From positions 186,001 through 250,000 of the forward strand of contig WFMF01000119.1 in the NCBI GenBank assembly GCA_011033025.1: a stretch of DNA of 64,000 nt, written 5' to 3'. Of the stretch, positions 10,973-63,281 are shown piece by piece; the stretch's first letter is position 1, and each line of letters opens with the position of its first letter. The position numbers were made by a program, and so were the translations under genes. Below the pieces are notes generated by a model that was not told the DNA's origin, did not search any database, and was given only the letters and a program-made list of their open reading frames with translations. This stretch comes from Beroe forskalii (taxonomy: Eukaryota > Ctenophora > Nuda > Beroida > Beroidae).

Positions 10973-11732
10973 TACTTGGAAAATGTATTTGTTATGGTTA
11001 AGTTGTGGTTTGAAAGTGCGTAGGAACTCAATTCTGACTTATTACTGAGTTTAGTTACAGTAATTATTGTACGATTCTTAAACAACTTTCAATCTACTCA
11101 GATTGAAATCAATCTACAGTGTAAACAGTTAGAATGTAGTTGTAGGCACTTTAAATATAATACCAAGATATCATAACAATGTAATCATCTTTAAAAATAC
11201 AAATGGAATACATGTCAAATCATTTTCAAGTTGCAATAGAAGGGTTCTGGGCTTCGAAAAATTCAGACCAACAAAGTGCCCGCAAAGTTTGAAGAAGGTA
11301 ATTTTATCCACTTTTATCAGTTAGTCCTACGTTAATCTTTTTAACGCTTATAGCATCACGGAATGACAAGAGGCGCTTGTAATTCTACACGGTTTAAATC
11401 TCGTCATGTCTCAGGTTATTATCGTTGGCTGAAGCTCGAAAGTGGTACCTAAAATCTATAGTTTTGAGTAGGATGTTTACTTTGTATCAACAGGCATGAG
11501 GCAAAATATCAATAGACATTGGACTCACGGGGTAAGGTCTCGCGATACCACTTTACAATCCAATTCACACTGATAATTGAAAGGTTTTAGGCGAAAATTT
11601 CAATTACATTGGAATGTCAAAGGACAGGCAAAAATTGGAATCAGAATCGTGCAGTGATGTCTATAGGTCCTTCAAGTACACAATTACTCGTAAAAGCATC
11701 CGTATGAACATAATACGGATAATATGAAGATC

Positions 11733-29818: not shown

Positions 29819-29918
29819 NNNNNNNNNNNNNNNNNNNNNNNNNNNNNNNNNNNNNNNNNNNNNNNNNNNNNNNNNNNNNNNNNNNNNNNNNNNNNNNNNN
29901 NNNNNNNNNNNNNNNNNN
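29819..29918. other. Assembly gap, 100 N
   Basis: A run of exactly 100 N, the conventional size for a gap of unknown length. It is flanked by a minisatellite and by G-rich, telomere-like GGGTTAGGG DNA. Confidence 0.99.
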
Positions 29919-32968: not shown

Positions 32969-33489
32969 TCAACTTGGTTCCATGGATTGGTAAACATCAT
33001 CATCATCATATAGCATAGCTACATATTCTTCACCTTCTTTTGCCATTGGTAAGTAATCAACTTGATCTTGGTCTGGTGCCATTGGCAAATAATCTCCTTG
33101 TTCCTCTGGTGCCATAGCTAAGTATTCCCCTTGGTTTTCTGGTTCCATTGAATAATATTCTCCTTGGCTTTCTGGTTCCATTGAATAATATTCTCCTTGA
33201 TTTTCTGGTTCCATAGAATAATATTCTCCTTGATTTTCTGGTTCCATAGCATAATACTCCCCTTGGTTCTCACCATCCATTGGCAAGTATTCCTCCTCTT
33301 TTGTACCTGAACTCACCAACAAGTCTCTGACAGGCTGATCAATCTCTCCCATTCTGATAAACTCTGGTAACTGTGAAATGTCTGCCTGAATCCTACCTGA
33401 CTCCACATAGACCGGACTAGCATTGATCCCTGATGTGTCAATGTAGACAGGGCTCTGAGCTGCTGAGTTGGTGGGTAGTCCCCGAGATC
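32969..33489 (-). CDS. Docking adaptor last exon: ten YxxM PI3K-binding motifs
   Basis: Phase 1 in, ends with a stop at 32969-32971. Tyrosine motifs in order: VYIDTS, VYVES, then YLPM, YYAM, three YYSM, YLAM, two YLPM, YVAM and YQSM. The central ones are 11-residue repeats of the type GEYYSMEPENQ, coded by a 33-bp minisatellite. pYxxM is the consensus of the p85 SH2 domains. Acidic residues around each Tyr suit tyrosine kinases. Confidence 0.9.
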
Positions 33490-36400
33490 CTGAGAATAGG
33501 TGGTTTGTTAAGGGGTGAAATTAATGACAACAGACTACAGTAGCAAACAATCATGAGTTAAGTTACTTATCTAGCTTATCTACAGAGAGTAAAATTCATT
33601 TTAATCAACAATTGACAAAAAAGTCAGGAAATAATTCGAATGATTCTTCTTTACCTGCCATAGTGAGAGATCGTGGAGGAATTGGAATAGGAGGCCTGGA
33701 AGGCTGAGGGTCGGTGGTGGTTTTATCTTGGTGAGACAGCATCGGTTCGAACTCCTGAATTGTAGAAGATCACTGACCTAATGCATTTAAATTACATTTA
33801 AAGTATGAACTTATTCTGCATTATCATGCCTTATACTCTTATTACATGAAGGTATAAACATTCATTACAAAGTCCTATTGAAATAAGACCAGAAACTTTG
33901 TCACAATACAAATCTAGCCATATCTACCTCTTGTTTTAAATCTGGAATTGGGAGTGCATTAGCTCCAGAGTATTGCTGTTCATCAGGCTGTTTTTCTCTC
34001 TTCCGTAACTTACTGTGCTTCTCCCCTGTTAAAAAGATGATAGAACCAATCAGAGTTATTCTTTGAATTCATCAGTTATCCGATGAATGAACAACCAATA
34101 TTCAATAATTTCAATGAAATAAATAGTAGATACTAAGAAAAAGAATCCTATCTTGATCTAAAAAATCAGTAGGCATATTAATTAAGATTGTTTTCATTTC
34201 AAAGCTTACCCTAACAGCCATCAGGGGGCTTTTCATTGCTCCTCTGGCATCCGTAACGTTTTGGTAACCTTTCGATACTTTTGATCATTCCTGAAAATGT
34301 AACAATGGCATTGAAAGAAAGAATGAATGACGAACTTGGTACTGTGGTAACGTTCTCCATGTTAAAGTGTTAATTATAAACTTGCTCGCTTTCGAAATTT
34401 CGATGTATTACTGAGATTCACTCACCGACTTTTGAGTTCTTTATAGTTGGGTATTTGGAGTTCTTCGTCGGATCTGAAGAAGCCGGAGATCCTTCTGGAG
34501 GGAAATGGGAAAATTAGATTATGATTTGAAAAAATATTAAGGTAAAACTAATTGTTATGCTCCATACAGTCCCAATTTTACATGGAAGTAATTTATGCCC
34601 CCTCCCAAGACATCGATTCCCAATTCGAGTAAATATGACTTTCTGCTGAGAAAAGGAAATTTCCTGCAAAACTCACCAGGTGATGTCTTTTTGATGGTGG
34701 GAGGGTAATCATATTCCTTTTTCGGGTTACTTGTAGCTGGGGTGGGCAGACGATTAGATGGCGATGGTTCTGGTTTGGTCGGACTGTCTGGGATCGCATC
34801 AAACACATCCTGAAAGGGATGAACTTCATGTTCACTGTTTGTACAGTACATTGCGTATCTAAGTATTCTATAGTAGTCTCACGACAGGTTTAGACTGATT
34901 TTGAGGGTAGTACTATATGCGTAGAGTCGTGTTACTACACACGTTTTATATGATGTGTTTGTTATGACATACTCAGATATTTAACACCAATTTAAATGTA
35001 AATCTATGCAACCTTGCATTTGCTGTATGGGTAATAAATGAATCCAAACATGAGCTTAATTAGGTATATGTGGGATGACAACGTTCATCATTGCCAAATT
35101 CCATTGTTACAGAAAAGTTCAACAAATACGATAATATATTCACCATGTTCTACCTAACCACTTACCTGCGCCTGTTTGCTGAGTGTTAGAATTGCAGCTG
35201 GTCTCTGGGGCTGCAGCGTCATGGACCTCCACTTATCCTGCTCCTGAGGGACGTACCCCTCCAGAAAGGGATTGGTAGTCTGAGGGAGTAGAAGCGGTGA
35301 GTCAATATTAGCAGGAAATGTTCATGGTATCATGAATACGATCTAAAAACGGCACAAGCGGTCAAATGATCGATACAAAAATCGATGAATTTTCTAAAAA
35401 TGGAACTGCGCTATTTCTTAAACTCTATTTCCTATCACTAACCTGTCTCGTTGTTTCAGATCGCCTCGGTAGCCGTGGCGGTGTCCTCGGTTTCGGAGCC
35501 CCACTGATCCCTGGGGCACTCGGCACGCTCCTTTGCGGGGTGGAAACAACGGGAACTGATCGGGACGGAAGGACGGGACTATGTCCTGGGATCACATACT
35601 CGTTGTCCATGTCCTGTTGTCTGGTCTTATCTCCGGGTCTGCTAAAGTCCGTAGCGGCAGGCGCTGAAGGGCTGCCCCGGAGAGTGGAGGCTGGGAGTTG
35701 CGGGACAGGTCGGTTGGGAGGGGGCGCAGCCACAGCCCCCCTACTTCCTTTACTGGACAAGGTCTCAGAGGGGGGTCGGGGTGGGGGCCGACTGAGGGTG
35801 GCCCCACGTGAGGGGACGGGAGGTTTGTCTAAGGGGGAGGTGGGGCCGGGTTTGCCAGTTCGAGGTGGCAGCGCAGGTGCCGGGATGGCGCCGGGACGTG
35901 GGGATCTGGGCGGGATTTGTTCGTTTGGAGGGGATGTGAGGGAGTTCCTAACCGCTCTGTCTGACTTAGCAGCCCCACTTTCAGACACTCTGGGACTGTC
36001 AGCTTGAGACTGAGAAAGGGGACGGGAAGAGTTTGACTGGGATGGAGAACGAGAGCTCGTCTGGGACGAGGGACGGGAGCTTCCTTGGGACGAGGGATGG
36101 GAGCTTCCTTGGGACGAGGGACGGGATGACGGGGTGTTGTAAACGAGTTCCATGCCCGGGGGAATGTCTTCCATGTCGTCGGAACTTTGGTCCTGGTCGA
36201 CAATAACCAGATCTGCGTATGTGGAGACAATGTCAGAAACGGAGGAGTCGGTGCGAGAGAGATTTGTTGGAGCGGAACTCGGTCTGAAATGTGAGAGGGT
36301 ATTAGGTTCGGTAGCGCTATGTGAAGTTTAATCATCTGTCAATTATCCTAAAGTCATCAAGATTATCCAAATTATTTGAAAACATTCAAATCCCCAGCTT

Positions 36401-39400
36401 TTGTCAAAGCAATGAATCACAAGAATTCATCATAGCCTGCCTATGGATTCAGGATTCAGGAAACATAAAATGACCTCAACCAAAATTCAACTTACATCTC
36501 AGAGAAAATTGAGAGTAAAATTTCGCAAAACGAAAATTCAAAACGCTTGTAAGTGTGTCAAACGATGGTTACAGTCGACAAGTGACCGTGAACGATTGAA
36601 TAAAGCTACACGCACTTATCAACACTTGCCAAGAAATTATAGGGAGACAGTACATTGAAAAGTATATATTGACATGAATTCCATCGGAAACGTTATAGCC
36701 AGAGACAGTCGTATTTCAAGGGAGTGGCAAATTTAGCGCTGTTCAGATGTTGGAAGATTAGTATATTCATATGACTGGTTGGTCTTGTCAGATACGTGTC
36801 AAAAGAAAGTGAGCTCATCGAAATTGCAAATAACAGATGTTATATCCTGGCCATGCATAAGTAGGTAGTTATGATTCATGATAATAATATTCAATGACAG
36901 TTATTATAGGCGGAAAGTGAATGATGAGCCCTCCCCAAATACCCTGATACCAAATATGGAATAATTGACAAGTTCTTCCACCCTTCACGCCTTGAAATTT
37001 CAAATTTAGACGATTTAAGAATTTTCTAGAAAGACTCCAAAAATCCTAATAGATTTCACAAATAACTCTAAAATATCGGTAATAAAACACGCAATATACT
37101 CACTGAACACTTGCGGAGTTGTTTGCTCCAGAAACACTTCGTCTTGGGGGTGGAGTATCGTAGATCGGTTCCACAGCAGCAGATGGGGGTTTCGGGGGTT
37201 CGTGGGCTGGTTTCGGGGGTTCCTGAACTGGTTTAGGGGGTTCCTGAACTGGTTTAGGGAGCTCTTGAACGGGTTTAGGTGCTACTGGAGGTGGTATTTT
37301 ACCGGACTTCGTCCGAGTAACTTGTGGTGGTCTATCGTAGATTGGCTCCGTAGATGGCTCCGGTTTTGGAACTTTTTGAGGCGGAACATCGTAGATTTGC
37401 TCAACACTTGACATAGGAGGCACATCGTAAATCTGATCGGGAGTCGTTTGAGAAGGAGGCGTGCTGTATATCTGCTCAGGCTGAGGTTGAGCTGAGGTCA
37501 TGGAATTGCGATGGGGCTGAGGAGACTTCTGAGGTTTCGATGAGGTTCTGCTCTGAGGAGGCGGAGTGTCGTAGATCTGTTCTGAGGTGTGATCGTATTG
37601 GGATGTGGGGGTGTTGTAGGTTGCGAGTATTGACGAGGGAGTGTCGTAGATTTCGTCTGGTTGAGGGTAGGGATCACTGTGTGTAGATTCATGGGGTGGT
37701 TTAGCTGCTGGGGGTGTGTCGTAGATTGGATCCTGAAATGAGTTGAGTGAAGAGAGAAGTTATTGAGATGGAATAAGAATTAATTTGGGGTAACAATGGT
37801 AACATTTTGGAATTACATTACTAGCGCATTGTTTTAGCAGGAAGTGATTAAAAGTGTGATGAACGCATGAAGTTAAATAATATGGTATGATAACCGTTAA
37901 CCATGGCAATTTAGGCACAAAAAGCCTCGTTTAATTGGTTTAATTGAACAAAGAACTTCAATTATGCGTGGTTACGTTTCCTTTACCAAGTTTACCACCT
38001 TATCACTATTTAGCCTAGGTGCAGTTTTCTTAATCCTAGACTAGATAATTCCATTGTCCTGTGTTTATTTCGCTGCATCATATGTACTTTTAGATTGTAA
38101 TGAAAGTTTTCCATATTATGAACACTGAACAGTATGTCAATGTTCCAAGTTATTTTGACTAGGTAAAACAAAAACTGAAATTTAAACGTACCAGATGTCC
38201 ATCAACTTCAACGACATTGATCGGGGGCCTTGAGGTCTTTGCATCACTTTCATTTACTGCTTTCTCTTGACTATTCCTGTTGTAATTCGTCAAACTACTG
38301 CTGCTTCTGTCGATATTTGTCGAATTACTGCCACTTCTGTCGAAGTGTGTCGAACTACTGCCATTTCTTTCATAGGCTGTCGTATTACTACCACATCTGT
38401 CATACGCTGTCGCATTACTTCCACTTCTGTTGCACACTGTCGAATTATTGCTGGTCCTCCTATCGACACTCGAGTTGGAGGAATGTCGAGGTACAGTGCA
38501 GGGAACATCGTAAATATCATCATAAGTCGGATCTGATGCTTTCAGAAAATCTCCTCCCTGAAATAAAATAAGAATAAGAATTAGAAATACACATGATTTA
38601 TTAATTCAACGACTTTTTGAAAAAGTCAGTAGAAATGAGAATGGATAAATTGAAGGTGTTGATGGCTTGCTATAGTATTTTGGATGGGAATCAAATAATT
38701 TGATAGCTACTTCGTTGATACGTGTTGAGTGAGTCATGAATGCTGTTTTGGGGTATCCTAACGGAATCAACAATTTCGTCTCAGGGAAATCAACACTTAT
38801 TTTAAGATTTTCCGGCTCTCATAGGCGACTTTAACAGCAATCTCTGCAGCTATAGTGTAATGTATCACTTTAACTATAATAAATTCAAAAAGTATGTGGA
38901 TGTTAAAAATAACATAAAATACTAATTAATTCCTATCGATTCTCATGGAAAATATGTATGTCCTCGCCTCATACAGTTTTAAATTTTTAACAATTTAAAG
39001 TAACAGCTTTAAAAAGGAGAAGGTTTTCATATGTTATCGTACTTTGGTGAATTCCTACAATTCTTGACGGTCCGATGTAGTCATAAAAATCCCATAGGAC
39101 GTTTCGAAGCTGCTGAACAGTAGCTAATGTGTAGGACTGTTGATGCTAAAACACATATTTCTTTTAGTATTTTCATAGACGGCAAGTACTTAGTACGTGT
39201 GTTGTGTTGTTGATTTGTAATTTATTTTCCGGAACGAATAGTTTTGTTGTTAACATTTAAGCGTCGTCGGTAATTGATCATACACTTAGGAATTCTGTGA
39301 AACACAAAGCATTGAGTGTGCTGACTGTTGGTCGATATAACTTTTCTAACTTCTAGTTTTCACTATTTTGGGGGTTTTGGAATGGTTTCCCAACAACTTA

Positions 39401-42400
39401 CACCCGATTTTTTTGGGTTTCCAAATAAAATCCACGATGGAACAATAACTACAAGCTTGCTTCAATACCTTGCGCCAAGAAAAGAAAGATTTAAATTATT
39501 ATCATTCTGAACTACTTTAAATAAGTCCACCATTGTTAACCATAATAATGACATAACCTGGAACGTCTATTAGTGTCGGCATGACTTCTCTAGATTTATA
39601 AGTTTTGATCTTTCTTTGGTAGCTCAAAGAAATCATACGAAAGACAAAATACGCCTAATGCCTATTATAATAGTGCATTATAGTTCCTATGGTCTATTCT
39701 CTTATTGTACTACTGTTTCCAGTTCGGGAGGTTTAATCGCCAACAGGTGACATTACAAGTGTTTCTATTGGTTCGAGACGAATAAATGACGTTTATATAT
39801 CAGTGACGTCATCATCTCTTGATTTTGAAGGGCTAACTGTCCCATCTTCTATCTATCCCTACACTCATATAACTAAACTATACCGATTACAAGAACTAAA
39901 CCTAGATTATACGCCGCGCACGAAGAATAGGCGGGTAGGATGACGTCATTATCATATCATGATGTAGTCAGTTGATGACGTTAAACCGCCTATATTTCTC
40001 GTGTGCGGGGTTTAGAAGAACAGGTGATCACACACATGTAAAGTCTAACCTGATCTTTTCTAGTCTTCTCCCCATGCACTCTGTAGTCTGTGGTGTAGTC
40101 CGTATTGTTGCCTTGGAGGAACTGTATCACGTTGCTGGGAATGTCGTATATGTCTTCATCGTATGCAGACTCTTTAGTCACACTTTCTACCTGAAAATAG
40201 GATGGTTTCCTAAGGAATATTGGGGAATTTGTACTTTGTGATTTTTGGGTCGTAAGCAAACTCTTTATAGTGACACTTTCTACCTGCAGAAAATGGAATG
40301 TTCCCAAGGAATGTTATGGGGAATTTGTACTTTTGCAATTTTTTGTGGGAGTTGTTCGTAGGGCATTTGTATTTTGTGCTTTTAGGGTCGTAACGATTAG
40401 TTTGGGTAACACACTAACTAACTAGCAGGTGGGCTAGCTCTTAATAACCATTTCTTGTCTGTATTCAAAAGAGTAAAAGGATCTAATAATAGACACCTTG
40501 ATGTATCAATTTAGAGAATTTAGCTCCTAAATAATAGTAATTTGTCTGCCCCTTCGGTCACAGATCTATCTCAGATAAATATAGAAGTGCGTAGAGCTTT
40601 CAAACTTTCAAAGAAGCTCTCGAGGCCTAATTATCATGCTTAATTACCCAGAAAATTGGATAGGATTGAATTGTCCTGATGTAGGATAATTAGGGTGTTG
40701 CAGAGCAAACTGGAACTGGATAGGATGTTGAGTAATGGATGGGATACAATATTGTTAGATAACATTTGAAGAATAATTCAAGTGTTACAGAGCTATGAGC
40801 AATTAAAATTCAAAATTATCGCTTATCGCTTTACCACACTAAACACAGGCTTTTTCTCATTGCAGTTGACAATTTAAAGTGTAGAATTTACGTAATTATA
40901 GTCAGCTTTGTAAAGCTGGAGTCATTATTAATGATCAATAAAGCAATTATGAGAACAATTAACATTGTAAGTAAAGGAAACATTTTATAAGGGGAAACTT
41001 TAGTAGTCTAACATCCATCAATTACGCTTTGAGAGAAGGCTATAACAAGGACTAGTTTATGTCAAGTTCTTACAAGTTTAGTTGATTAACTATCCAATCG
41101 AAACCCCTCCAAACTTTCCGTTTTGAAGGAAAGTGACAAAACTTTTCGTTAGTCTCCTTTTATTCGCTACATAAACAGTACTTACTAATAATTGAAACAG
41201 CTAATTATTTTGAATTACGGTAGTCGGACAGTCGGTTTCGTGTTGTTTTCGCATGTGTAAGAGTTTTCCATAAGGACTTTGTGTTATCGGCGGCATATTA
41301 AAATGCCTACAGATGCATTTAACATTGACCAATCAGCACGCGACTTTACTGTAAACTTGGGTGCTGATTGGTAAATTTCATGACGATTTCGAGGTCCTAC
41401 ACCGCTTATATCAATCAATAAACGAATTGACGCGGTCGTCAAGTCAACATTCCACTACGTTTTATGTCTTCAGATATACTCAAGTTGCTAGTCACAATAA
41501 TAAGCTAATAAGTAGTTGGTCATATTATGTTTGTAGCTTTCTTATTGTGAGAAAGCTTTTGTATTTTCTTTCAAAACCTTTGTTTTGCCTACTGTTGTTT
41601 CATTCACATTTTTCTTTGATATTCAAATTATCGAGTGTTCTTGTTTTAGGACAGTGTATATGCATTGAATATACAGTATAGAAGTAAACATTGGCCAAAT
41701 GTTCAACAGTTTATTAACCCTATTCAACTGGACCTTTTTCTGAAGATTTCACATTCATTGATATGTTATGTTTGATAATAATGGAGCACCAGAACAGCAT
41801 CAAAGCTGCTGCCAATAATTTCATTAATAATTTAGTGTCCAATGTATTATTGACTCGAAATTTATTTATTTCGCATATTGATCCAATGGAATTGTTTGTA
41901 AATTTCATAAAATAATTAATTCATAATACATTGCTGTCCCTTTTATTCTGTAAGTATGAAACAGTGCCTGGTAATATTCTAGTTCTCCACTTCTATTTCA
42001 ACCCGTTTCTATCTCGAACCGTTTCCATCTCAACCCGTTTCTATGTCAACCCGTTTCCATCTCAACCCGGTTCTATGTCAACCCGTTTCTATGTCAATCC
42101 GTTTCCACTAACCTGTCTGCCTGTAGTCTTGACTCCAGGACTCCTGTTCCCACTAACCTGTCTGCCTTTAGTCTTGACTCCAGGACTCCTGTTCCCACTA
42201 ACCTGTCTGCCTTTAGTCTTGACTCCAGGACTCCTGTTCCCACTAACCTGTCTGCCTTTAGTCTTGACTCCAGGACTCCTGTTCCCACTAACCTGTCTGC
42301 CTTTAAGTCTTGATTCCAGGAATCCTGTTCTCAAATGGAATGAGAAGTCGTATATTCCGTCACAGTTCACCTCGATTGGAGTTTTCTCTTCCTGCAGAAT

Positions 42401-45400: not shown

Positions 45401-48400
45401 ATTTACCGTTCCATTGAGCCAAAACTCAAAACCACCGAAATTCCTCTCCATTCTATAATCTAACCCGGAACAATGAACATTCCCAGCAGTAGATAATATG
45501 ATTCCCAAGCATTAGCCTAACTTTGCATGTACATTTTACCGATTTACCTATCCATTATTAGATTGAAACATCCTACTTCCCAGCAGCAGACATGATTCCC
45601 AAGCATTTACCCTGACTTCGCATCGACCTTCACCGAATAACCTTTCAATTGAATCTAACCCCACAAATTCCCAGCTGCAGTCATGATTCAATGGTTGACA
45701 GGGTTCACAGAGCGACAGGATTACTTCGTGAATCTGTTCGTGGTAATTCTCATGATATTCGGAATCATCATTTCAACGCTACTCAACCCTGTCATACTCA
45801 TCTACTACTGGTGAGTTACAGTTTGTCATTCTGTCAGTTAATTTGAAAATTTGTAAGTTTTATATATCGTCGCTTATCGTTTATTGTCTTTATTGTCTGA
45901 TCTTTCTAAAGTATACCTTTTCTCATATCCGTTTATTTCTCAATCCATAGAAATTTAAAGAAACCCTCTGATTTTATATAAAACTATGGTGGATTTTTGC
46001 TTTAATCACGCTTTACATTTCAAGTTTTATAAGCTCTGATTCAAATATCGACATCAAATATATCGTGCCGTTCTGTGTTAGAATTTCTACGGATTATTCC
46101 TCTCTCTAATTCTCTCCTTTCCTCAGGAAGAAACGACTCCGCTAAATTAAGTCGCCGACTGTTCATCCTCCTGGCCCTCTCCGACTTGTTAACCAACAGC
46201 TACCCACTGATCCACATCCTGTACTTCTGTCTCAACGATAGCTACTCCTTCAGTGTTAATGTCAATGAGGGAATGGTGGTCGATCCCATGTACAAGTAAG
46301 AGAGATTTGATCTTTTGTGGTTTCTTTTAGCAAATTTACAAAAGTTGAAAGATGAGTCGTCTCTTTTCTCAATGATTGTAGATTGTACCATTTAGTTATG
46401 AAAAAAGTAAACCATTGTAAACGATAACGACTTCTTTTATTTCCGCTACTTCATTGAATATGACAAAAACCTCCTGACGCCTCTGGCCTCTAGTGTGTCT
46501 TCTGAGGAAACATTTAATTACACACGAGTCCTAACCATTGTCAATCATTACTCGCCAATTTTAAGCTAAATAAATGACAAACAAATAGCCTCCTAAAGCC
46601 TAACCCCTCTGTTTTCCCAGGTATTACTCAGTCCCCTGCCTGATAATGTGCACCTTTGGCTGCACCTCCCAAGTCGTTACCTCCGTTCTGGCCGTGGTCC
46701 GATCCATCTCCATCTTCCAGCCTTTCTTCCAGTACGAACAGTGGATTCCCATGGCCTACATAGCCATCTTCTGCACCATCATGACCATCAACGAGTTCGC
46801 CTTCGCCTACTGCCAGTTCCTTGAAACCACCAACACGGTGATGTCTGTCATAGAGCTCGCAGTGAACGCGTGTTTCTGGATGACAGTGATGCAGATTGTG
46901 ATTGGCATCGCTGCCTCCCTTCTTACGTTCCTCAAGCTGTTTGCCAAGAGGAAGGTAGAGAAGACCAGGATGAGAAGTTGCTGGATTATCTTCCTCATGA
47001 ACATTCCCTACGTGCTGTCCGTTATCAACTTCATTCTCTCTAAAACCAGCTGGTCTAAGTACGGGTATGTCTACCTGGCCTTTGTGGCCATTCCTTGCTT
47101 CACCTCGCTCTTCAACCCTCTGGTGATTGTCTTCATGACGCATGAAATCAGGCACTTTGCGGGCAAGTTGGTCAAGGGGGCATGGCGGTGGTTGAGGCAC
47201 AAGTACAAGCAGTTAAGGGGGGTTAGTCCGTACGATTTGACCCCGAAAACGTCAGCGAGCACCCAGAATTCTGAGAAGAATTATGCCACTGCTACGTTTT
47301 GAGGATTAAGCCACTATTTTACGCCAGTAAAATAGTGCAACGACTTTAGTGGTAACCGAAAATGACGGAGAAAGTCAAAAAAAAAACTACAGCTCCAGGA
47401 CTCTTGGACTCTAAGAAAAAAAATAAGACTTATAAAAAGGTGAAAGGAATGGAGAGATTCCCTTTTCAGAACAGATGAAGACAGAGAAGATGAATGTCGG
47501 ACAGCAATAATATGGAGCTAGAATTTGTAATTTTTTAAACATTTCATTCAATTCATACCTCATGCTTTTAGTTTATCAGTCATATTGGAGCTTTGAAGTA
47601 AAGGTACACCTTTTAATTAAATTTTCTTGATTTTTGTCGTACTTAATTAATGAAACGTTTTGACAATTCATTAATTACTTTTGAGTGAAAGTTCAATTAT
47701 CTAGCATCAATTCATTCAATTATCGATAGCATCATCTTGTATCCGCATAATTCCTTTTCGTCAATTGTTTATCAGATAAATTTTTGTTGGCTCAACCTTC
47801 CATACAATAATACTACTTTCTACGATCATAATTGAGGTTATTCCGATAAATCTAACGGCAATTCGTGCATTAATTTGATATCGATTGCGTTCTTAAAATA
47901 TGTATTTTCGTACAAATATAATCATTGTGAATTCTGAGTTTAATTTGTTCAACGCCAACTTTTGTTTACTTCAGATCATGAAAATTATGAAGCGCTGAAC
48001 CAACAAATTCTATAGATTCCAAAATCCAACTTCCAAAATATAACCGTAATTCGCTTACCTCCACATCAAAGACGTAGACACCATCTATGTTCCGTCTCAT
48101 AGTGGAGCCAGTCGGACTTGCCATCTGATTCCTTATCATGAATCTGCTGGGTAGGAAGGCCCTGTCTTGAGATCTGGGGGAAATTGTCGTGGTGACTTTA
48201 TGCAATATTGTGGTATAATGAAGTCATTGACTATGCAAGAGCTAAAGGGATACAGACGATTCGTCAGCACAGTTGACGAATGCTGATGGATCAACCAAAT
48301 GGTTATGTGGTACTTTGTGCTGATATTTAAGTGAAAAAAAGCGTTTGTATTCAATAAATATGCGTCGTTGATTAACATGTTTACCATACTAAGAATTCAA

Positions 48401-51400
48401 TGGCCATATACTTAGAATTCAATAGAATGTAAAGCGTTACCCCATGATGCAGACTGAATCACCACAGTTCTGTTGGTTCATCTTTAGTATCCATTCGTAC
48501 TGGGTAGCCTGTAGACACGTGAGTCAAAGTAAAGAAACACTTGAAAGACCCAAATTACCGAATGTGACACATTTTCAACTCTATGGCACATTTTTGTGAA
48601 TGCTCCATAAAACGGATAACGCGATAAAATATCTGATGGATTAACCGCGCAAAAGACGCGCGCACATGGTTTAAATCTTCGCGCGCGCACATGTGACCGG
48701 TTCAACTCCAACATCCAATCGTTATTTTCCGGAACGTCGAACCGTAGCTAGGCTCTGCTCCGTCTTATTTCAGTTCTTCCAAACTTACAACAAGACAAAA
48801 TAAACATCAAAAAAGTTACAATGTTTATAAACGTGCTCTAAGTACGCAAGCTACCCACTACTCCCGAATGGGACCCGCTGGATTTGGAAGAACTAAAACC
48901 TGTCAATTCGGTCAAAATATGCGGCACCGTGTTAGTTGCGCATGCAATGGAAATAAAAATTGCAATGCAACTTATCTCGTACATTATTCGGTATAGTGTC
49001 TAGCACGGCTAATTAAACTCAGTGGATTTTCGTGCTGTATGGCAAACTGAGGGTTCGTTACGTGAAACCGAACTACTGCAATATAAAATGTGAAAATAGC
49101 CATTATCAATATATTGACAACACCTACAATAATAAGAAGAAACAGTGACGTACCTCATCGTGCATGGCGTCAACTGGAGGAAGACTATCGGTTAACCTGA
49201 TCCTACTGCCTGATGCCTCAGACTCGATCGCACTGCAATCGGAAAGAAAACATTAACCATGGGAGCATTGTGAAATGAAAACTTAATTTTCAGACTCATC
49301 CAAGTTTGTGTGTGTGACTCAGGCATTTCAATTTGAATAAAATAAAAACGTAGATGAATATTCCTAACAGCTGATTTTCAGATAAAAATGCCGATCATTA
49401 TATGAATTGTAGATATGATCACATCCATAAATTTGTGAAAAACCAGAAAAATTACCCACCCAAGTGACGCCAAATATATACTCGAGGTTTGAATACATTC
49501 TATTCGAGATAATTCCTATTTCCTAATTTATAATGCGTCACATGCCCTACCTGTCATTACTAGAAACATGGGAAGAGATGGATTTCGTGTGTTCAATAGC
49601 GATATCCTCGTCCTCTTCGAATTGAGATATGGACAGCTCATCACCCTGTCGAGTAAATAATCGTTAGTTAACTATCCCGCTTTGAATTCAATGACAAAAA
49701 AGGAATACTTTTGTACACAGTACACTTTATACAATGTATACAGTACACTGTATACAGTGTACTGTATACAGTGTACTGTATACAGTGTACTGTATACAGT
49801 GTACTGTATACAGTGTACTGTATACAGTACACTGTATACAGTGTACTATATACAGTGTACTATATACAGTGTACTGTATACAGTATACTATATACAGTGT
49901 ACTGTATACAGTGTACTGTATACAGTGTACTGTACACAGTGTGCTGTATACAGTTTACTCACATTGCGTGAGTAAACTGTATGCATCCCGACTGATTTCA
50001 AATTGAAACTAAAGAGAAACTGCGCTTAAATGGTAGGAATTAATGACTAAACATAGATAACACTTAATAAATCAAAATGCTTGACAACATTCGGATTAAC
50101 TCTACTAGTAGCTCATGATGTATGATGTAAGGTTAATGATTTTGCATAATTAGATGTCATAAAGCACTTTTTTCGCTTTTATAGATTTTTGAAAATACAG
50201 TTTGGAAGGGCTATTTAAGGCCGGTTGTTTTACTAATGCAATCTTTTCGGGCAGTATCAGTGAAGCCTCACTTCTTTATCCACCTTTCTTCATCCACCAA
50301 GTACTATAGTATCCTAGATCCACCTAGTATTAGTATCCTTTCTTCATCCACCAAGTACTATAGTATCCTAGATCCACCGAGAATTAGTATCCTTTCTTCA
50401 TCCACCAAGTACTATACATTCTAGATCATTCCACATTCTCGAGCTTTGATGTGTACAGATGTTAGAGGTCAGAGTGCACACCACAAACTCACAGCTCAAC
50501 AGCAACTGAATGTCTGTTAGTATTCCCACGTGGATGTCTGATGAGAACCTGCTGGCTTCTGAGGCGTCATTGGCACCGAGGATTGTCGTATTATCATAGA
50601 GGAAGGTGTAGTCGGGGTATTTGGTCTGTAGCTCCGTTACCACTGCAGGTTCGTCTGTTGCCAAATACACACGTTTTACTGCCCCCTTCTTCTGGTTGCC
50701 ATAGTACCGCTCTATCGATGGCATGTATGCTTCTACCGGCACTAACTCAGCTTCCTGTATCAGCTTGTCAGTCCTGCGTACCTGCATCCCTGGAATGGGC
50801 TCCACAAACCCAATGTTTTCTTTAGCAGCTCTCACATGCTCCACCATATCCGGCTGGAGCCTGTAGATGTACTGTACGATGTGACCCGCCCACCATGCCA
50901 TTGGGGACTTCACAGAGGCCGGGGCAGGTATCCAGGCTGGTGGACCCTCGTAACATCCCCTTAGCTCCGGAGTCGCGGGGGCATAGTGCGGGACTATCTT
51001 CACGACTTGGTGTTGGGCGTGGTTGGGCCCCCAAAGAGGGGCAGGTTTGCGGTAACTCGTACAGTTCTCACTGATAGGAAGGAAGAACCGCTCCCACGCC
51101 TCCTTCGTTATGACGGCTCCTTGGAAGGGGTACAGCACCACCGTACGGTTAGTCCAGGCAGCGTATATGAAACAGTTCACCAGTTTGTGGGTGAGGTACG
51201 CAAACCCTCCCGGTGGAGTCAACGGACAGAGGAGTTTCCTGGCGGAGCCACAGTCCTTGGGATGCTGGAGTTGAGCGAGGAAGAGCCTTGCTGCATCGTT
51301 TTCATCCTGTTTCGCTGCTGTTACGAAGGTGGGAAACTGGAAGAGGTTCCATTCAATCATTCGAAACCAAGTGAGTACAAAGAGTGTATTTGTTAGTACC

Positions 51401-54400
51401 AGGACTGTAAGAAATATGCCAACTCTGCGTTGGTTAATTACAGGGATCATACTCATACAATATTGGGAAATTTAATTGATTTGGGCGAGAGTCAGGCTGG
51501 GAACAGGATTACAAACTGTAACAATGATCGAGAATACAAAATAATAAAATACTGCTTGCTTACAGAATAAAACGTAACATGTAAAATATCACGTGATATG
51601 CTTGTCAAAGTTCTCTTTGAGTCTGTGGTTGTTTTGTTCGACATCACAGCTTTTAACAGCAAGCCCGCACAATCAATGAAAATTATGGTTGTGTGAAATT
51701 GAGCAAAATTTTCAAATTTATGAATATGTATCAATCGTGTCTGCCGTCGGGCGTCGGCCTCATCCTTAATTGCTAAGGATGCAAACAAATGCAAACAAAT
51801 CGGTCAATAATTCTGTTACCCTGCACCTGCTACATACGTTTTTAATATGGAACCAGTCTGAGACACAAACGAATCACCATTTGTAAATAATTTCAATCTG
51901 ATGCTTTCTATGTGCAGAGAAGCCATAATGACAAGGAAGAAGCTGCGTTTTGACAGATGAGTGCTCATTGAGTCATAAACATGACATTAACAGAACTTCT
52001 GTTGACGTCCCAGTGCTATCGAACATATCAGCTAAGCAGCTATACGCTACTATCGAGCTATTATTAAATAACCTTGTTCCGGAAACCATGTGCATTCTTG
52101 AGAGAGATAACAAAGAATAAAGGAGATAAATTGCGATAAAGGGAAGGGATGTGCGTTTGAAAAATGTTGGCATTGTCAACGAAATGTGCGGAATGTTAGT
52201 TACCTTACTTCCGAGACTGAGTGGAGAATAAATGCTTTCCAACTAGATTGAAAGGCAATTTATTGATAGGTAATTAGTTGACGAGGTACATAATTGCTTC
52301 ATTGAGGGTATAAATCATTGATTCAGTGATTTCATGATCATGAAATTAAGATAAAAAATGTCCTACCACGCTTGATGTATCAGAAACTTCACTGATAGGT
52401 TCCCAGCTGTTGTTCTTGGAATTCTTTGAACCCTTGGTGATAACTTTTGATCCGACCACTGCTATTTTCTTCACAACGGATTTACTGCGTTTTTGAGATA
52501 TGGCAGGCGAACCTGTTCAGAAAATAAGTAAGCACAACATACGAATCTGGGGTTGTGTTGGGAAACACAGTTTTTATAGACCAACATTTGACACAATAGC
52601 TGCTCAGACTGAAAGTACAAAATGCAGTCACTGAGTTTTAAGCGTTATTTTGGGTTTTTGGAACGAAAATAACGAGCTATCTGTCATTGAAATTGTACTT
52701 ACCCACAATAGGTGTCCTTTTGAGATCATCCAAAACACCGGAAATGGAAGAAACCCAACGATTCATGTCTTTTTCAGTCTCTGCGCACAATACCCACAAG
52801 CGTTTTGGAGTCTCTAGCTCAAACCCATATCTGACTGAGGGAAGTTGAATCTATGAGAATTTAACTGAATCTGAAATCTAGTTGGCTGGTATTATGGAAT
52901 TATGGAGGAATGGAGGATAAATTCTTGAGTTTTTACCTCAAAAACCTTGCTTTCAAAATCTAACCGAAATGCAGAAATCGAAAACACAATACCTTAGTGG
53001 TAGAAATTAAGATGTGTATTTATTAAGGGCGTACTAATTAAGAAGTGTACTAATTAAGGCAGTAAAATTTCCACAAAAATCAGGCAAATCTAGGACTAAA
53101 TTTCACGTCGTTTCACCAATTTTCAAACAAAAATACCGATATGAAAACAAAAAGAGGGCAGATTTTTTCCATTAAATTAAATTTATTTGGGATCTATGGA
53201 AGTATGAAATATAGACAAAAGTAAACCTAGGCGTTCTAGAGAAACAGATTAGCAAATTTGGGTCAATGAGCATCCTAGAGTCAACATCATGTTCTTTGCA
53301 ACGTTTCACTGCCTCCGTGTGATCAAAAGATTGGCCGCTGAAATTTTGAAGGCCTTGTTTCCTGATGAAAACATCGAAGATATCGAAGATGGTTCTATTA
53401 GGCTTGAGATGGAAGATATGGATTATGGAAGATGTGCAGGAAGACGAAGAAGCTGAAGAAATGTCTATAATTTTTATCGAGTGATAATTGTTTATCATAT
53501 CAAGTTCAATTTTGTCTGCACTGATGCTTTCGCTGAAAAATTCTGAACCTGCATTGAGAGAAAATAGAATGCCTTAATATTGTAGTGAAAGAAAAGATAG
53601 GTACAGATTTACAAATCTTTACTTTAACAAAATTTTCTAAAATTTTGGTTTTGTACAAATTACGGTGAGTAGAAATTAAGATTTGTAGAATTTAAGGAGT
53701 GTACTATTTAAGGCAGTGAAATTGCTTACTGCCTTAAATAGTACACTTCTTAATTTCTACCACTAAGGTAATTATTGGGAGAGGAAAATGTAGATGGATA
53801 ACACGAAAGTTGATTTTGAGATATAACCCGGAGATTTAAGAAATTGTGGCTAGGAAACTATCAAATCACGCAACGCATCTGAAAAAAGTTGCAATCATCA
53901 GTTCAAAATCACGTGATGATGGTAAAACCTGAAATTTTGCAAGACACTGCGCGGCTTATTTTGATTTATGATATGCGGATTGTCATTCAAATTTTGTTTC
54001 GCGCGTTCCAAAGATACAATGTGTTTCCTAGAACTTACTCGTGCCAACTTAGCGTGTAAATATGTGCGTGTAAGGTGTGTGTTATGTGTGTAGTTTGTAA
54101 TCTGTCTAGATGTGTTTGTGGTAAACCGCCAAATAACACTTCGTTTGTTTGATTGAGTTAGTATAGCCTTCACTTCCTGTTTGCACAGTACGGCCGGTGA
54201 TGAGTAGTAATGAATTATGAAACTGTAAAAACCATGCAGGCGCTTAAAAACACAGAAACATGAGTTAGTCGAATCATTGCAACCTTGTCCTGTTTTAAAA
54301 TAGAATAAAGGTTATGAAACTATCGATAAACATGGCATGTAAATAAATTTCACAAGGCCTCACTTTAACTTGATTGTTTATGAGGCTGGCAAGTATGGGC

Positions 54401-60400: not shown

Positions 60401-63281
60401 CCCATGACCCACCCTGTGACATCAGATGATCTGATTCAGATTCATGCATCACATCACCATTTCACAACTCTTTCTTCATAAATAGGGGCACAATGAGTAC
60501 TGATGATCTTAATGATGTAAGTAGGCGATGCTTCAAACCGCAAATGGCAATGATCAATGATCGTATAGCGTTTTTTTATTATCTCATAGTCAAATTGGGA
60601 ACCTGAAAGTTGAAATAAAAATTCTAGAATGCCTCTTTGTATGACGAATAATTTAAGAATTTGATACTGCTTTCACTTTCAACGCATGACGTCAGACTGA
60701 ACACTCAACTAAATCTCAACTCACACAGCAGACGGAATGATGTGAACTGTAAAGTCAGAAGTCGGAAATTTGCGTATTTGGATCTTCACGTTTGATCGAG
60801 CATGATGAATTGTGGATAATCAAATTTCTTAGATGAATGTATGAAGTCAAGGTGAGCAGAATTTTTAAGTGTAATCCTTATTTAGTATGCACCTATTGGT
60901 TGGAATTTAGCGTTTAAGGTTAGCTCTATAAGTTCAAGGTTCGCCCTAGTACTCTTGCAGTTCGAAGTTTGTCCTGGTCTTATGAACGTCTACACCCACC
61001 GTTCACCTTATTCACCCAAAGCAACACACGCCTATTCACAAACACCCGGAAGCTATCCAAGGAAATGTAATACAAGAAAGCATTGGACATAGCATTAACG
61101 AAGGTTGTAAAAAAGGCGAACATTGCTAGGTGATTGTCCCAGTAATCTCTAACTTCAGCAGGTAAATTCTCTGCAATAAACCGTCGGAAGATTCCTTTGT
61201 ACATCAGGATAGGTACCCCCGATATCAGATACGTTATTCCCACGTAGACATAGGTGACTATGCCCTGCGGCTTAGCCCGGCCAGTCACTCTTTTGACAAA
61301 GATCAGCAGAGTCACGGTCGTTATGACAACGACAATGTTGGGTATGACACCAAAGATAATCGGGAGAGTCGGGAGAAGTTTTTCCCAGATTGGTTTGGTG
61401 AAGAGGTAAGCACACCTGTAGATAATCTGGTTATACGAGATGTCTGTTCCGTCCACTATCAGCTGGGAGAGAGGTAGTATCGTGGTTAGTGTCCAGATGA
61501 TGCTGGCTATCAGATATCCCTGTCTGGTAGTCCTGGATATCACCCTCAGGGGGTGGATTAGCGTGGTCAGCTTACTGATATGTAGAGCACAGATCAGCAT
61601 GGTAGCAGCCATGAAGTTCATCACTTGGAGGTAGTGGAAGACGTAGCAGGAGATGGTGTTGTAAGGCCAGCCATTCCAGATCAGGGATGCTAGAGTAGGA
61701 TGTATAGCAAACAGAGAGTACCCAATGTCACTGAATGCGATGTGGGTGATCAGGACGATACTGAGCTTGTCCAGTCTGAGGGCTCGGTTGTGGATTGCTA
61801 GCAGGATCATGGTGTTGCTCATGAAGGCTAGAGACAGGGTGCCACTAACTCCAACTATCAAGGCATGCCGTGTTGTGTCCGATACGCGGCCGTGGTGAGT
61901 GTGCTGTGTAGAGTTGGCGAAATTCATCGCTAAAATAGCTGGTTTAAGTGGCAAGATCTTATTTATTTGCAAGTTCAAAACAGATTTAGTAGCAAGTTGA
62001 GAACAATGAGATTTGAAAATAGTCAGCATACTGTACTGTGTAGAGTTGGGAAAATTCATCGCTAAGAAAAATAGCAGATTTTAGAAGCAATATCTTATTG
62101 CAAGTTCAAAGTGCAGAAGTCTTGAGAACACAGAGTTTTGAAAATAAGTTGCATTGTGATTTATGAGTGGATTATTTATACTCGATCAAACGAATGCTAT
62201 GGATATTTTCGTGGCAAATTCAACAGAAATTTTGATTAATTTGTTCGTTGATTTACCAAAAATTTGAACGTTTGATTTTATAAACACTTTGTCTCTGTGG
62301 AGGATGATTTGTCAAACGTAGCCATCTTTTATTTTGTCTGAAATTTTACTTTATTTTGTCAGAATATGGTGTCCTACTATTTAATCGGTGGAGCTTAAAC
62401 CTTCGAACAGGCCCATTTAAAATTGCCCAACCTGCACACGAGCTGTGCTGATTGGACAATGTCAAAAAGATTATTTCGAGAACATAGTGGGCACTAGCAG
62501 TCAGGGGTGACAATTTCACTTATTTTGTTATCTGAATATCACTTTTTCGCCTTGAAAGTCGCAGCTGACGCGTGATATAGAATTTAAATACGCATCTATA
62601 AAGGAACGAGTCAGTTCAATCTACCGAGTGCCGACTTCTTCGGCGAACGCTTATCGAATAGCTTTAACAAATTGAGCTGAAACCCGCGATATTTGGTAGG
62701 AAGGTATTAGAAAGATGTCTCGTAAGACACGTGAAGCACAAAAAAACACCAAACGCAATTTTATTGGTATAATATGAGATATAGCGACGGATAAAGAGCA
62801 AAAAATTAATCCTGGTATACAAATCATTACTATTTAGCATCAGTATAATTCATTACAGATTGAGAATGACGTAACTTACAAAATTTTGGGTGTGATGATG
62901 AGAATAAAAACTTACAGTTATTCTGTAGGCTGTGCTCCGACGGAACATTTATCTTCAGGACTTGGGAAAGAGCTATTTCCCCCTTAGCTTTGGCCAAGTT
63001 TTGTTCATCTTTGTAATACCTGAATAAAGTACAATAGAAGTTTAAAAGGTCATGTTCTTAGCAACCCTGTTTGGAAATATATAGAGATAATTGACATTTT
63101 TGGATAGCGAAGAAGGCCTTTGCCAATCTAAGAATATGTTGACAAAAAACATGTTATTACAATTTCAGCTTTTAACTTTTGAGTTGAAATTGAATGTCAT
63201 AATTACAATTAGCTATAGCAGTTTCACCAACCTTAAGATTCTATCTGCTCTGCTTAGCGTGAAGTAACGTCGGCACCATTC
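32969..63281 (-). CDS. PH-domain multi-site docking adaptor (GAB/DOS/IRS-class), 20 exons, 5' end missing
   Basis: Exons in transcript order: 63281-63232, 63019-62916, 52834-52703, 52512-52367, 49645-49551, 49232-49154, 48508-48441, 48173-48059, 42391-42293, 40190-40050, 38557-38192, 37732-37104, 36283-35443, 35279-35166, 34809-34677, 34494-34426, 34290-34216, 34025-33928, 33754-33655, 33489-32969. All borders are GT-AG and every phase agrees, giving 1,324 codons before the stop. The first three exons form a PH domain lacking its first strand. The rest is disordered with many YxxP sites, one YADL and ten YxxM sites. GAB, DOS and IRS adaptors use a PH domain to reach membrane phosphoinositides and phosphotyrosines to recruit Crk, SHP2 and PI3K p85. 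No PTB domain is seen, so GAB/DOS-like is the better fit. The starting exon and promoter lie upstream of 63281 and were not found. Confidence 0.8.
33130..33270. repeat. 33-bp coding minisatellite (YYSM repeats)
   Basis: Four to five near-identical 33-bp units, each coding GEYYSMEPENQ-like sequence. Confidence 0.9.
34216..34290 (-). CDS. Docking adaptor exon with competing donors, one creating a stop
   Basis: Phase 1 frame MIKSIERLPKRYGCQRSNEK and PPDG. The stronger donor (TTAGG|GTAAGC, ending 34210) keeps phase 1 but places an in-frame TAG at 34213-34211. A weaker donor (GGCT|GTTAGG, ending 34216) avoids the stop and joins the next exon in phase. Confidence 0.6.
35443..36283 (-). CDS. Docking adaptor exon: YADL motif and proline-rich linker
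   Basis: 280 codons, phase 2 in and 0 out. Near the start is STYADLVIVD, resembling SHP2 SH2-binding sites of the [V/T]YxDL type. Then come RPSSQGSS repeats and many PPxxPxR-type SH3 ligands, plus VYNTP and YVIP. Confidence 0.85.
37104..37732 (-). CDS. Docking adaptor exon with nine Y-(D/N/S)-x-P motifs
   Basis: The frame contains IYDTPPA, IYDTPSS, TYNTPT, IYDTPPP, IYSTPPS, IYDVPPM, IYDVPPQ, IYDRPPQ and IYDTPPP. Between them are PKPVQEPPKP repeats, which could bind SH3 domains. pYDxP is the Crk SH2 consensus. The donor is CA|GTGAGT, phase 2. Confidence 0.9.
38192..38557 (-). CDS. Docking adaptor exon with YDVP and a degenerate 10-residue repeat
   Basis: 122 codons, phase 0. Starts GGDFLKASDPTYDDIYDVPC, then repeats of the form DRxGSNxTxY (five to six copies, coded by a 30-bp minisatellite) and ends VVEVDGHL before GTACGT. 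Confidence 0.8.
39914..40007. mobile_element. Short TIR element with TGACGTCA, copy 1
   Basis: CGCGCACGAAGAATAGGCGG and the inverse end CCGCCTATATTTCTCGTGTG enclose ATGACGTCATTATCATA. Related copies at about 43995-44095, 57060-57155 and 57690-57780. Confidence 0.65.
40050..40190 (-). CDS. Docking adaptor exon with a YDIP motif
   Basis: 47 codons, phase 0 both sides: VESVTKESAYDEDIYDIPSN and on to a charged end. The YDIP fits Crk/Nck SH2 binding. A decayed duplicate of its first bases and acceptor lies at about 40255-40310. Confidence 0.8.
41985..42115. repeat. Minisatellite of about 15-bp units (CCCGTTTCTATCTCAA)
   Basis: Tandem variants of CCCGTTTCCATCTCAA or CCCGTTTCTATGTCAA directly beside the 45-bp donor repeat. 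Confidence 0.9.
42113..42300. repeat. 45-bp tandem repeat containing a splice donor
   Basis: Four to five units, each with CTAACCTGTCTGCC on the plus strand (GGCAGACAG|GTTAG on the minus strand). Confidence 0.95.
42293..42391 (-). CDS. Docking adaptor exon with five tandem in-frame splice donors
   Basis: It encodes EEKTPIEVNCDGIYDFSFHL and RTGFLESRLKGRQ, phase 0 both sides, donor CAG|GTTAGT. The same donor recurs at 42248, 42203, 42158 and 42113 in a 45-bp tandem repeat without stop codons, so longer isoforms (+15, +30, +45 or +60 residues) are possible. Confidence 0.75.
42420..45200. other. Intron of the docking-adaptor gene, no coding exon seen
   Basis: AT-rich, with the hairpin at 43378-43440 and a TGACGTCA element. 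A frame at 44502-44699 ends in a Ser-rich, protein-like stretch, but has no splice context I can defend. Confidence 0.35.
43378..43440. repeat. 31-bp-arm hairpin with a 1-nt loop
   Basis: GTGTCACTCTGAAAGC...ATATAACGG (43378-43408) pairs with 43410-43440 with a single mismatch, a fold-back structure. Confidence 0.95.
45180..45690. repeat. Degenerate tandem repeat, about 120 bp, running into the GPCR start exon
   Basis: ATTCCCAAGCATTTA recurs at about 45190, 45350, 45500 and 45597, with CAGCAG(T/C)AGA.ATGATTCCC around it. The start codon of the nested GPCR (45683) lies in the same context as the last unit (CTGCAGTCATGATTC). Confidence 0.7.
45683..47302 (+). CDS. Class A GPCR-like receptor nested in an intron of the docking-adaptor gene
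   Basis: Exons 45683-45810, 46127-46295 and 46621-47302. Exon 1 codes TM1 (FVVILMIFGIIISTLLNPVI, with the conserved N), exon 2 TM2 (LFILLALSDLL with the conserved D) and exon 3 TM3-TM7. TM3 ends AVVRS in place of DRY (R kept), and TM7 has NPLVI, a relative of NPxxY. The tail is short and basic. Exons 2 and 3 join in phase (AA|G). Exon 1 ends in phase 2 (TACTACTG|GTGAGT) but exon 2 needs phase 1, a one-base conflict: a base error, a missed site or a broken copy. The ligand cannot be predicted. Confidence 0.7.
47310..48050. other. GPCR 3' region and intron DNA
   Basis: A small inverted pair CACTATTTTACG-CAGTAAAATAGTG directly after the GPCR stop (about 47311-47337), then AT-rich DNA without coding signs. 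Confidence 0.4.
48441..48508 (-). CDS. Docking adaptor linker exons (group 48059-49645)
   Basis: This exon (ATQYEWILKMNQQNCGDSVC) and its neighbours 48173-48059, 49232-49154 and 49645-49551 carry a low-complexity, charged and Ser-rich linker after the PH domain. None holds a clear domain. Phases 0-2-0-2-0 chain through all four, which is the main support. Confidence 0.65.
49711..49965. repeat. Palindromic microsatellite TACAGTGTACTGTA
   Basis: About 17 copies of a 14-bp unit that is itself near-palindromic, so the whole array can form cruciforms. It ends beside a hairpin (CAGTTTACTCAC...GTGAGTAAACTG). All three plus frames are open only because the repeat lacks stops. Confidence 0.95.
50280..50425. 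repeat. Minisatellite, about 54-56 bp unit, at the 3' edge of the FUT8-like gene
   Basis: Direct copies of TTCATCCACCAAGTACTATA with TCCTAGATCCACC. The repeat provides the final codons and stop if the FUT8-like ORF is read through. Confidence 0.85.
50457..51456 (-). CDS. FUT8-like alpha-(1,6)-fucosyltransferase nested in an intron, C-terminus incomplete
   Basis: The N-terminus is a Golgi signal-anchor (RVGIFLTVLVLTNTLFVLTW). The enzyme part matches FUT8: PKDCGSARKLLC, the nucleotide-binding segment QVRRTDKLIQEAELVPVEAY (VRRTDK is diagnostic), KRVYLATDEPAVVTELQTKY and DIQLLLSCEFVVCTL. FUT8 adds core alpha-1,6-fucose to N-glycans in the Golgi using GDP-fucose. The stem is short (about 330 residues here against 575 in human) and there is no coiled coil. 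The conserved frame ends at VCTLTSNIC, where a donor (ATCT|GTACAC) would start an intron; without it the frame runs into the minisatellite and stops at 50398. The terminal part, including the SH3 domain, was not found, so this is either a partial model or a truncated paralogue. It is on the same strand as the host gene. Confidence 0.8.
52703..52834 (-). CDS. Docking adaptor exon: PH domain C-terminal strands and helix
   Basis: It encodes RYGFELETPKRLWVLCAETE then KDMNRWVSSISGVL. The W in the final helix is the invariant PH tryptophan, and AET..DM..WV..I is close to the GAB PH ending. The acceptor is CTTCCCTCAG|TC. Confidence 0.9.
52992..53768. mobile_element. 777-bp DNA transposon-like element with TA target duplication
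   Basis: TA|CCTTAGTGGTAGAAATTAAG at the left is mirrored by ...TTTCTACCACTAAGG|TA at the right. Subterminal motifs (GTGTACTAATTAAGGCAGT) are also inverted. The right end holds a second hairpin (53701-53744). Flanking TA fits Tc1/mariner-type insertion. A 108-codon minus-strand frame at 53172-53498 is inside but not a recognised transposase. Confidence 0.8.
53780..55680. other. Intron DNA, AT-rich, no supported exon
   Basis: No protein-like ORF, RNA gene or strong repeat structure seen. Confidence 0.4.
55700..56345. repeat. Minisatellite, 17-18 bp unit TCACTCTGACACCAAT
   Basis: More than twenty copies of TCACT(C/T)TGACACCAAC or close variants, in two blocks that share a CTGTTCGGACGCCAGGTTTT insert (55808 and 56140). 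Confidence 0.95.
57060..57155. mobile_element. Short TIR element with TGACGTCA, copy 2
   Basis: GGTTAAAATGACGTCATTATCATAGC...AACCGCCTATTTTTC, with CGCGCG-type ends as in the other copies. Confidence 0.65.
57690..57780. mobile_element. Short TIR element with TGACGTCA, copy 3
   Basis: GGCAGTTAAAATGACGTCATTATCATAGC, then GAAATCGCCTGTTTAC, the same order as copy 2 about 630 bp away. Confidence 0.65.
58000..60950. other. Intron DNA, no supported exon
   Basis: AT-rich with scattered short inverted repeats. No protein-like ORF. Confidence 0.35.
60980..62059 (-). CDS. Atypical class A GPCR-like receptor, intronless, nested in an intron
   Basis: Seven hydrophobic segments: TM1 with N (LAFMSNTMILLAI), TM2 with D (LITHIAFSDIGYSLF), ECL1 WNGWP and Cys at the start of TM3, TM4 with W, TM5, TM6 and TM7. 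Key class A motifs are altered: DRY is SKL (ALHISKLTTLIHPLR), TM6 lacks the CWxP tryptophan (LISGVPILMY), and NPxxY is NAFLYY. A Cys in ECL2 (YRCAY) allows the usual disulfide. The start is ambiguous: ATG at 62059 or at 61927, because the 5' part is a tandem duplication (MNFPNSTQ... and MNFANSTQ...). It lies on the same strand as the host gene. G-protein coupling is uncertain. Confidence 0.8.
   Translation of the reverse strand: MNFPNSTQYSMLTIFKSHCSQLATKSVLNLQINKILPLKPAILAMNFANSTQHTHHGRVSDTTRHALIVGVSGTLSLAFMSNTMILLAIHNRALRLDKLSIVLITHIAFSDIGYSLFAIHPTLASLIWNGWPYNTISCYVFHYLQVMNFMAATMLICALHISKLTTLIHPLRVISRTTRQGYLIASIIWTLTTILPLSQLIVDGTDISYNQIIYRCAYLFTKPIWEKLLPTLPIIFGVIPNIVVVITTVTLLIFVKRVTGRAKPQGIVTYVYVGITYLISGVPILMYKGIFRRFIAENLPAEVRDYWDNHLAMFAFFTTFVNAMSNAFLYYISLDSFRVFVNRRVLLWVNKVNGGCRRS
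62070..62900. other. Intron and GPCR upstream region
   Basis: AT-rich; the presumed promoter of the nested GPCR lies here, but no motif is clear. Confidence 0.35.
62916..63019 (-). CDS. Docking adaptor exon: PH domain strands 3-5
   Basis: It encodes YYKDEQNLAKAKGEIALSQV and then LKINVPSEHSLQNN. YYKDE...KGEI.L is a hallmark of the PH beta3-beta4 region. Phase 2 in, phase 1 out. Confidence 0.85.
63232..63281 (-). CDS. Docking adaptor exon: PH domain strand 2
   Basis: It encodes EWCRRYFTLSRADRIL, matching the W..RYF.L core of PH domains. The upstream GWL-containing exon is not found in the last 700 bases of the window. Confidence 0.85.

Follow-up and report, generated by a model that had tools for sequence, protein, structure and literature searches.

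A minus-strand gene in the genome of the ctenophore Beroe forskalii probably codes for a multisite docking protein of the Gab/DOS type, in which the YxxM array for p85 docking is enlarged. It was modelled in a 64,000-nucleotide stretch of contig WFMF01000119.1 (the window, to which all positions refer unless another contig is named) and runs from 65,145, an extended coordinate placed 1.1 kb outside the window, down to 32,969. A docking adaptor of the GAB/DOS type had already been proposed in a sequence-only reading of this region, and the proposal was strengthened here by a PH domain nearest to those of Gab and DOS, the lack of PTB matches on the contig, a proline-rich tail, blocks of YDxP and YxxM motifs, and partner SH2 domains encoded in this genome.

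The exons were picked by eye from a three-frame minus-strand reading of the region from 64 kb to 33 kb and were then checked by script, which verified AG acceptors, GT donors, agreeing phases and an open chain for all 17 coding exons, closing with the TGA at 32,969 after 1,227 codons (Table 1). Twenty minus-strand exons had previously been claimed; their strand, GT-AG borders and agreeing phases held, and their number was reduced to 16 exons inside the window plus one upstream. The extent of the gene also had to be corrected, since it is the second coding exon that has its 5′ edge at 63,281, taken before as the start. The first one (e0), which completes the PH domain, has an in-frame TAG beginning 12 nt 5′ of its ATG and a GTAAGT donor. 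The 1,227-aa product, earlier called giant, is about the size of the IRS proteins. The gene does not include the sole N gap of the window, at 29,819-29,918.

Table 1. Exons of the modelled docking-protein gene and the tandem array in its last exon.
Feature	Position	Strand	Basis or remark
e0, first coding exon, MAADIICQGYLTKAPPLEQKRS	65,145-65,080 (extended coordinates)	-	outside window, adjoining stretch
e1, PH domain, first in-window coding exon	63232..63281	-	chain check; identical on contig C549
e2, PH domain	62916..63019	-	chain check; 1 synonymous difference in 104 on C549
e3, PH domain end	52703..52834	-	chain check; e0-e4 jointly match Pfam PH
e4, basic linker C-terminal to PH domain	52367..52512	-	chain check
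X1, acidic linker exon	49551..49645	-	codon scan and phase; picked after ranking
X2, linker exon	49154..49232	-	codon scan and phase; picked after ranking
A, first YDxP (YDIP)	40050..40190	-	chain check
B, YDVP and Ser/Asn-rich stretch from 30-nt tandem array	38192..38557	-	chain check
C, Crk-type block: seven YDxP plus YPQP, YNTP, YSTP	37104..37732	-	chain check
D, Pro/Ser-rich: YADL, YNTP, YVIP, candidate SH3 ligands (PALPPRTGKP)	35443..36283	-	chain check, motif scan
E, tail	35166..35279	-	chain check
F, tail with YDYP	34677..34809	-	chain check
G, tail	34426..34494	-	chain check
I, tail	33928..34025	-	chain check
J, tail	33655..33754	-	chain check
K, last exon: ten YxxM and stop TGA	32969..33489	-	chain check, repeat-unit comparison
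Tandem array within exon K, 33-nt period (99 nt also called)	33072..33297	-	codes 7/10 YxxM

The exons X1 and X2, which link the PH exons to the tail in phase, were obtained by scanning the 12-kb interval from e4 to A for codon usage; among 57 in-frame AG-GT segments they ranked directly below a FUT8-like gene, with 10.2 and 10.4 bits. The intron between e2 and e3 served as control, and the best of its 37 segments below a GPCR gene scored 4.7 bits. The score was used only as a guide, because the held-out exons e1 and B scored weakly (-1.0 and 0.9 bits), as did two ORFs of a BTB region taken as coding examples (1.1 and 0.3 bits). The chain stays open when X1 and X2 are omitted and then encodes 1,169 aa. 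From the phases, the bridging exons and the logic of the family, we infer that the PH domain and the tail belong to a single transcript.

Several other candidate exons were rejected. One at about 34.2-34.3 kb met a stop in the frame supplied by exon G and is unnecessary because G joins I directly; another, at 48,173-48,059, was doubtful, fitting behind X2 only via a weak acceptor; and two minus-strand stretches (46.0-46.3 kb; 47.05-46.76 kb) looked by eye like a plus-strand GPCR-like gene read in antisense. A 232-aa ORF on the plus strand (46,604-47,302) was GPCR-like by eye and gave no Pfam match. The FUT8-like fucosyltransferase is a single ORF (FUT8_N_cat, 2.8e-60) at 50,401-51,471 of the minus strand.

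The alternative that survives best, although it is unlikely, is that two genes were joined, namely one for a short PH protein that ends past e4 and one for an independent docking tail running from X2 or earlier to K. Read-through of e4 meets a stop six codons past its donor, but this donor is of consensus type and its phase is accepted by both X1 and A. Similarly, an in-frame Met in X2 (DAMHDE) could start a tail protein, whereas X1 holds no in-frame Met and none precedes the donor of exon A in its open frame. The FUT8-like ORF does sit on the same strand in the intron between e4 and X1, but nested genes occur in this gene anyway, since a same-strand GPCR gene sits in the intron interrupting the PH domain. 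Moreover, Gab proteins are likewise built from a PH domain with such a tail behind it.

The PH domain expected at the N-terminus was recovered by profile search, with a match to PF00169 at residues 6-106 (1.1e-14, Pfam) in the product of e0-e4. The 166-aa N-terminal part gave PH families only, and a Pfam scan of the 1,003-aa tail, taken without X1 and X2, gave no family at E up to 0.1. The domain was compared with five reference sequences from the GAB, DOS, IRS and DOK families and with eight PH loci of the same genome, out of 24 genome matches. The references GAB2 (34%, 58.9 bits), DOS (37%, 58.5 bits) and GAB1 (30%, 52.4 bits) were matched, the best of the eight own-genome loci reached 30 bits, and IRS1 and DOK1 gave no match at E up to 10. 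A PDB sequence search retrieved 19 chains up to E 0.1, the best at 2.1e-5, with no Gab-named chain among them. With some reserve, the N-terminal PH domain can be assigned to the Gab type, being nearest to Gab/DOS among the references used. A PIP3-binding pattern (K, then [RK]xR) that occurs in the GAB1 reference was absent from the start of the domain, and therefore its lipid preference may differ.

These comparisons also bear on a second alternative, an adaptor of the IRS or DOK type (PH-PTB-tail) that has lost its PTB domain or has it split over missed exons. Ten YxxM sites are an IRS-like number, but the PH domain matched the Gab/DOS references and not those of IRS1 or DOK1; and of the three PTB (PF02174) matches in the genome none fell on the contig of the gene, in a search that a PTB domain split over short exons could escape. 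This type of adaptor was accordingly considered quite improbable.

The genome search with the PH domain (8 candidates, all scored) revealed that e0, e1 and e2 recur on contig C549. A block of ~9 kb comprising the 5′ region, e0-e2 and the GPCR gene is repeated there (C549 68,316-78,092 versus 65,434-56,765, the e0 end in extended coordinates), and its piecewise alignment gave 73 to 94% identity. In the part compared base by base, only 3 of 220 bases differ in e0-e2 (two of 66 in e0, none in e1 and the synonymous one in e2), compared with 331 of 5,639 outside the exons and the GPCR gene (Fisher p = 0.0017). One of the three exon changes alters a residue (Ile to Val), and the splice borders of e0-e2 are preserved. 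Exon e3 was not found on C549 by the genome search, nor was the tail in its stretch 60,001-110,000. The C549 block looks like a partial duplication, and it may also be a strongly rearranged haplotype. That the locus is decaying or chimeric, with its 5′ exons duplicated and this copy or its tail non-functional, as the e0-e2 and GPCR block devoid of e3 and tail on C549 might suggest, is very hard to sustain, given that the copy described here is open across 17 exons with good splice sites and that the incomplete one is that of C549, within 60,001-110,000.

The GPCR gene, intronless and of the rhodopsin type (7tm_1, 8.3e-13), is located at 60,983-62,080 of the minus strand, and 44 synonymous and 4 non-synonymous codons differ from the C549 copy among 312 aligned. 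Since these differences are mostly synonymous, both copies look functional. As for the tail, an allelic copy was sought with which YxxM numbers could be compared. No second copy of exon K was found in the assembly, the sole candidate being exon K itself, and among 40 scored of 1,494 candidates for the remaining tail only self matches and dispersed intron repeats appeared. The earlier proposal of a changeable docking valency gained no support from this. One of these repeats, of ~155 bases, lies in the intron between E and F (34,869-35,023) and recurs at at least 39 other places with 84-92% identity among the same 40 of 1,494 candidates scored.

The ten C-terminal YxxM sites previously described were confirmed, as the tail holds exactly ten, all of them in the last exon, against a mean of 0.78 and a maximum of 5 when the 1,051-residue tail was shuffled 2,000 times. 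They are spaced by 11, 11, 11, 11, 11, 11, 12, 10 and 11 residues. Across the six regular units there is no variation in Tyr, Met, Gln (-3), Gly (-2) or Pro (+5), while the codons for Tyr and Gly show silent differences. Invariant Tyr and Met residues combined with silent changes would fit constraint and are no proof of it, because the units are few and alike. It had also been suggested that the docking sites are coded by tandem minisatellites, which holds for 7 of the 10 YxxM sites and for none of the 15 YxxP sites.

A Crk-type block was likewise upheld. There are 15 YxxP motifs in the tail, 10 of them YDxP (one each in exons A, B and F, seven in C). Shuffled tails (2,000 shuffles) had a mean of 0.42 YDxP and at most 4, so that the YDxP count is above the chance maximum, whereas the plain YxxP count is not, because the shuffles reached 16 (mean 6.8). 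Proline accounts for 157 of the 1,051 tail residues. The candidate SH3 ligands PxxPxR and RxxPxxP, six of each, were inside the shuffle maxima of 8 and 9, and the single RxxKP was also within the shuffle range. The atypical Grb2 site is given in a review as PXXXR with a core RxxK (PMC2747914); RxxK occurred once in the tail (PPRTGKP) and PxxxRxxK did not occur. The SHP2-type (YADL) block of the earlier account was not sustained, as the strict SHP2-type pattern had no match in the tail, which is within the shuffle range, and the single loose YADL (VSTYADL) does not fit it.

Among known docking proteins, the closest likeness is to the Gab/DOS family (GAB1-3, DOS, SOC-1 and Nematostella NeGab), with which the ctenophore protein shares a Gab-type N-terminal PH domain, the lack of a detected PTB domain, a proline-rich tail and Crk- and p85-type motifs. 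It differs from them in its ten YxxM sites clustered at the extreme C-terminus, where GAB1 has three YxxM in all, in its ten YDxP motifs, in its larger product and in having no clear SHP2 or strict Grb2 site. At ~135 kDa, roughly estimated from 110 Da per residue, the product exceeds the 50-100 kDa stated for Gab proteins in the literature. The SHP2 site was not taken as defining Gab, because the review counts NeGab as a Gab although the strict SHP2 motif is not conserved in it either (PMC2747914). BCAR1/p130Cas is similar in its long run of YDxP Crk sites, with 15 YxxP stated for the BCAR1 substrate domain (PMC5043372), but the protein described here has an N-terminal PH domain instead of SH3, no detected FAT-like domain and a YxxM array. 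The IRS proteins combine a PH domain with many YxxM sites, and the DOK proteins a PH domain with a YxxP-rich tail. In contrast to both, no PTB domain was found here and the PH domain is unlike those of the IRS1 and DOK1 references; the YDxP block further separates the protein from IRS.

Partners for such docking sites were found in the same genome, as matches to single exons and not to whole genes. Since a p85 iSH2 model gave no genome match, p85 was sought via its SH2 domain. There were 35 SH2 matches in the genome, of which 30 had loci that were inspected as translations and four were sent to a PDB search. A p85-like N-SH2 exon matched p85alpha at 1.2e-15, and an SHP2-like one matched PTPN11 at 9.2e-14. 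A 43-residue Crk-like SH2 piece matched CrkL at 6.6e-9 and, less well, p85 and SHP2. Grb2 was not established, as its candidate SH2 domain matched BTK best (4.3e-14) and then GRB2 (1.2e-10). The p85-binding domain of p110 was found at two places in the genome (2.7e-15); together with the p85-like N-SH2 exon, it indicates the presence of class IA PI3K. The p85-like exon occurs twice on contig C30 in opposite orientation and with equal scores (3,626-3,850 minus; 10,370-10,594 plus).

Elsewhere in the window, BTB-type ORFs at 9,396-13,400 of the minus strand are possibly tandem copies; 12,438-13,400 matched BTB (2.6e-10), and its related-looking neighbour at 9,396-10,412 gave no Pfam match. A 31-nt minisatellite of ~10.7 copies (8,342-8,663) lies inside overlapping minus-strand ORFs. 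The mitochondrial contig of the assembly (13,339 bases) carries COX1, with TGA read as Trp and conserved positions that are, by eye, read better by table 4 than by table 5. No tRNA was detected on it by ARAGORN under the bacterial code, and neither atp6 nor atp8 was recognised by eye among the ORFs listed. According to a published account, ctenophore mitochondrial genomes are devoid of tRNAs, ATP6 and ATP8, with table 4 as their presumed code (PMC6991124), so that the features of this contig point to a ctenophore.

For the Gab/DOS-type protein, a mechanism can be proposed in which the PH domain and SH3 adaptors would target it to activated receptor tyrosine kinases in the membrane, where kinases would phosphorylate the tail tyrosines. 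The pYDxP sites would then recruit Crk, and paired pYxxM sites could recruit both SH2 domains of p85 and hence class IA PI3K, whose lipid product could retain further adaptor at the membrane. For the EGFR system, the review describes such a PI3K/PH feedback with Gab1 (PMC2747914). The dense YxxM array would act as a strong PI3K amplifier, and Gab-type recruitment would be joined with an IRS-like p85 valency and a Cas-like Crk valency.

The Gab family is reported in cnidarians and bilaterians, with no evidence in Trichoplax or Monosiga, in the same review of 2009 (PMC2747914), and GAB1 and GAB2 morphologs are named in the sponge Spongilla in a structure-based study of 2023 (PMC10176882). No ctenophore Gab was present among the matches listed in the openly licensed PMC literature, a weak negative, and nothing relevant on YxxM sites with tandem repeats appeared among the literature matches listed, judged by title and abstract start. 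As a tentative scenario, and one that we hold doubtful, ctenophores may have inherited a Gab/DOS protein from the first animals and made of it one high-valency hub of the Gab/Cas/IRS type, whose p85 valency would vary via the 33-nt coding minisatellite. With a Gab-type adaptor in a ctenophore, the family would reach one of the earliest branches of the animals, and the array of ten YxxM sites would offer a natural system for testing how the number of docking sites sets PI3K output.
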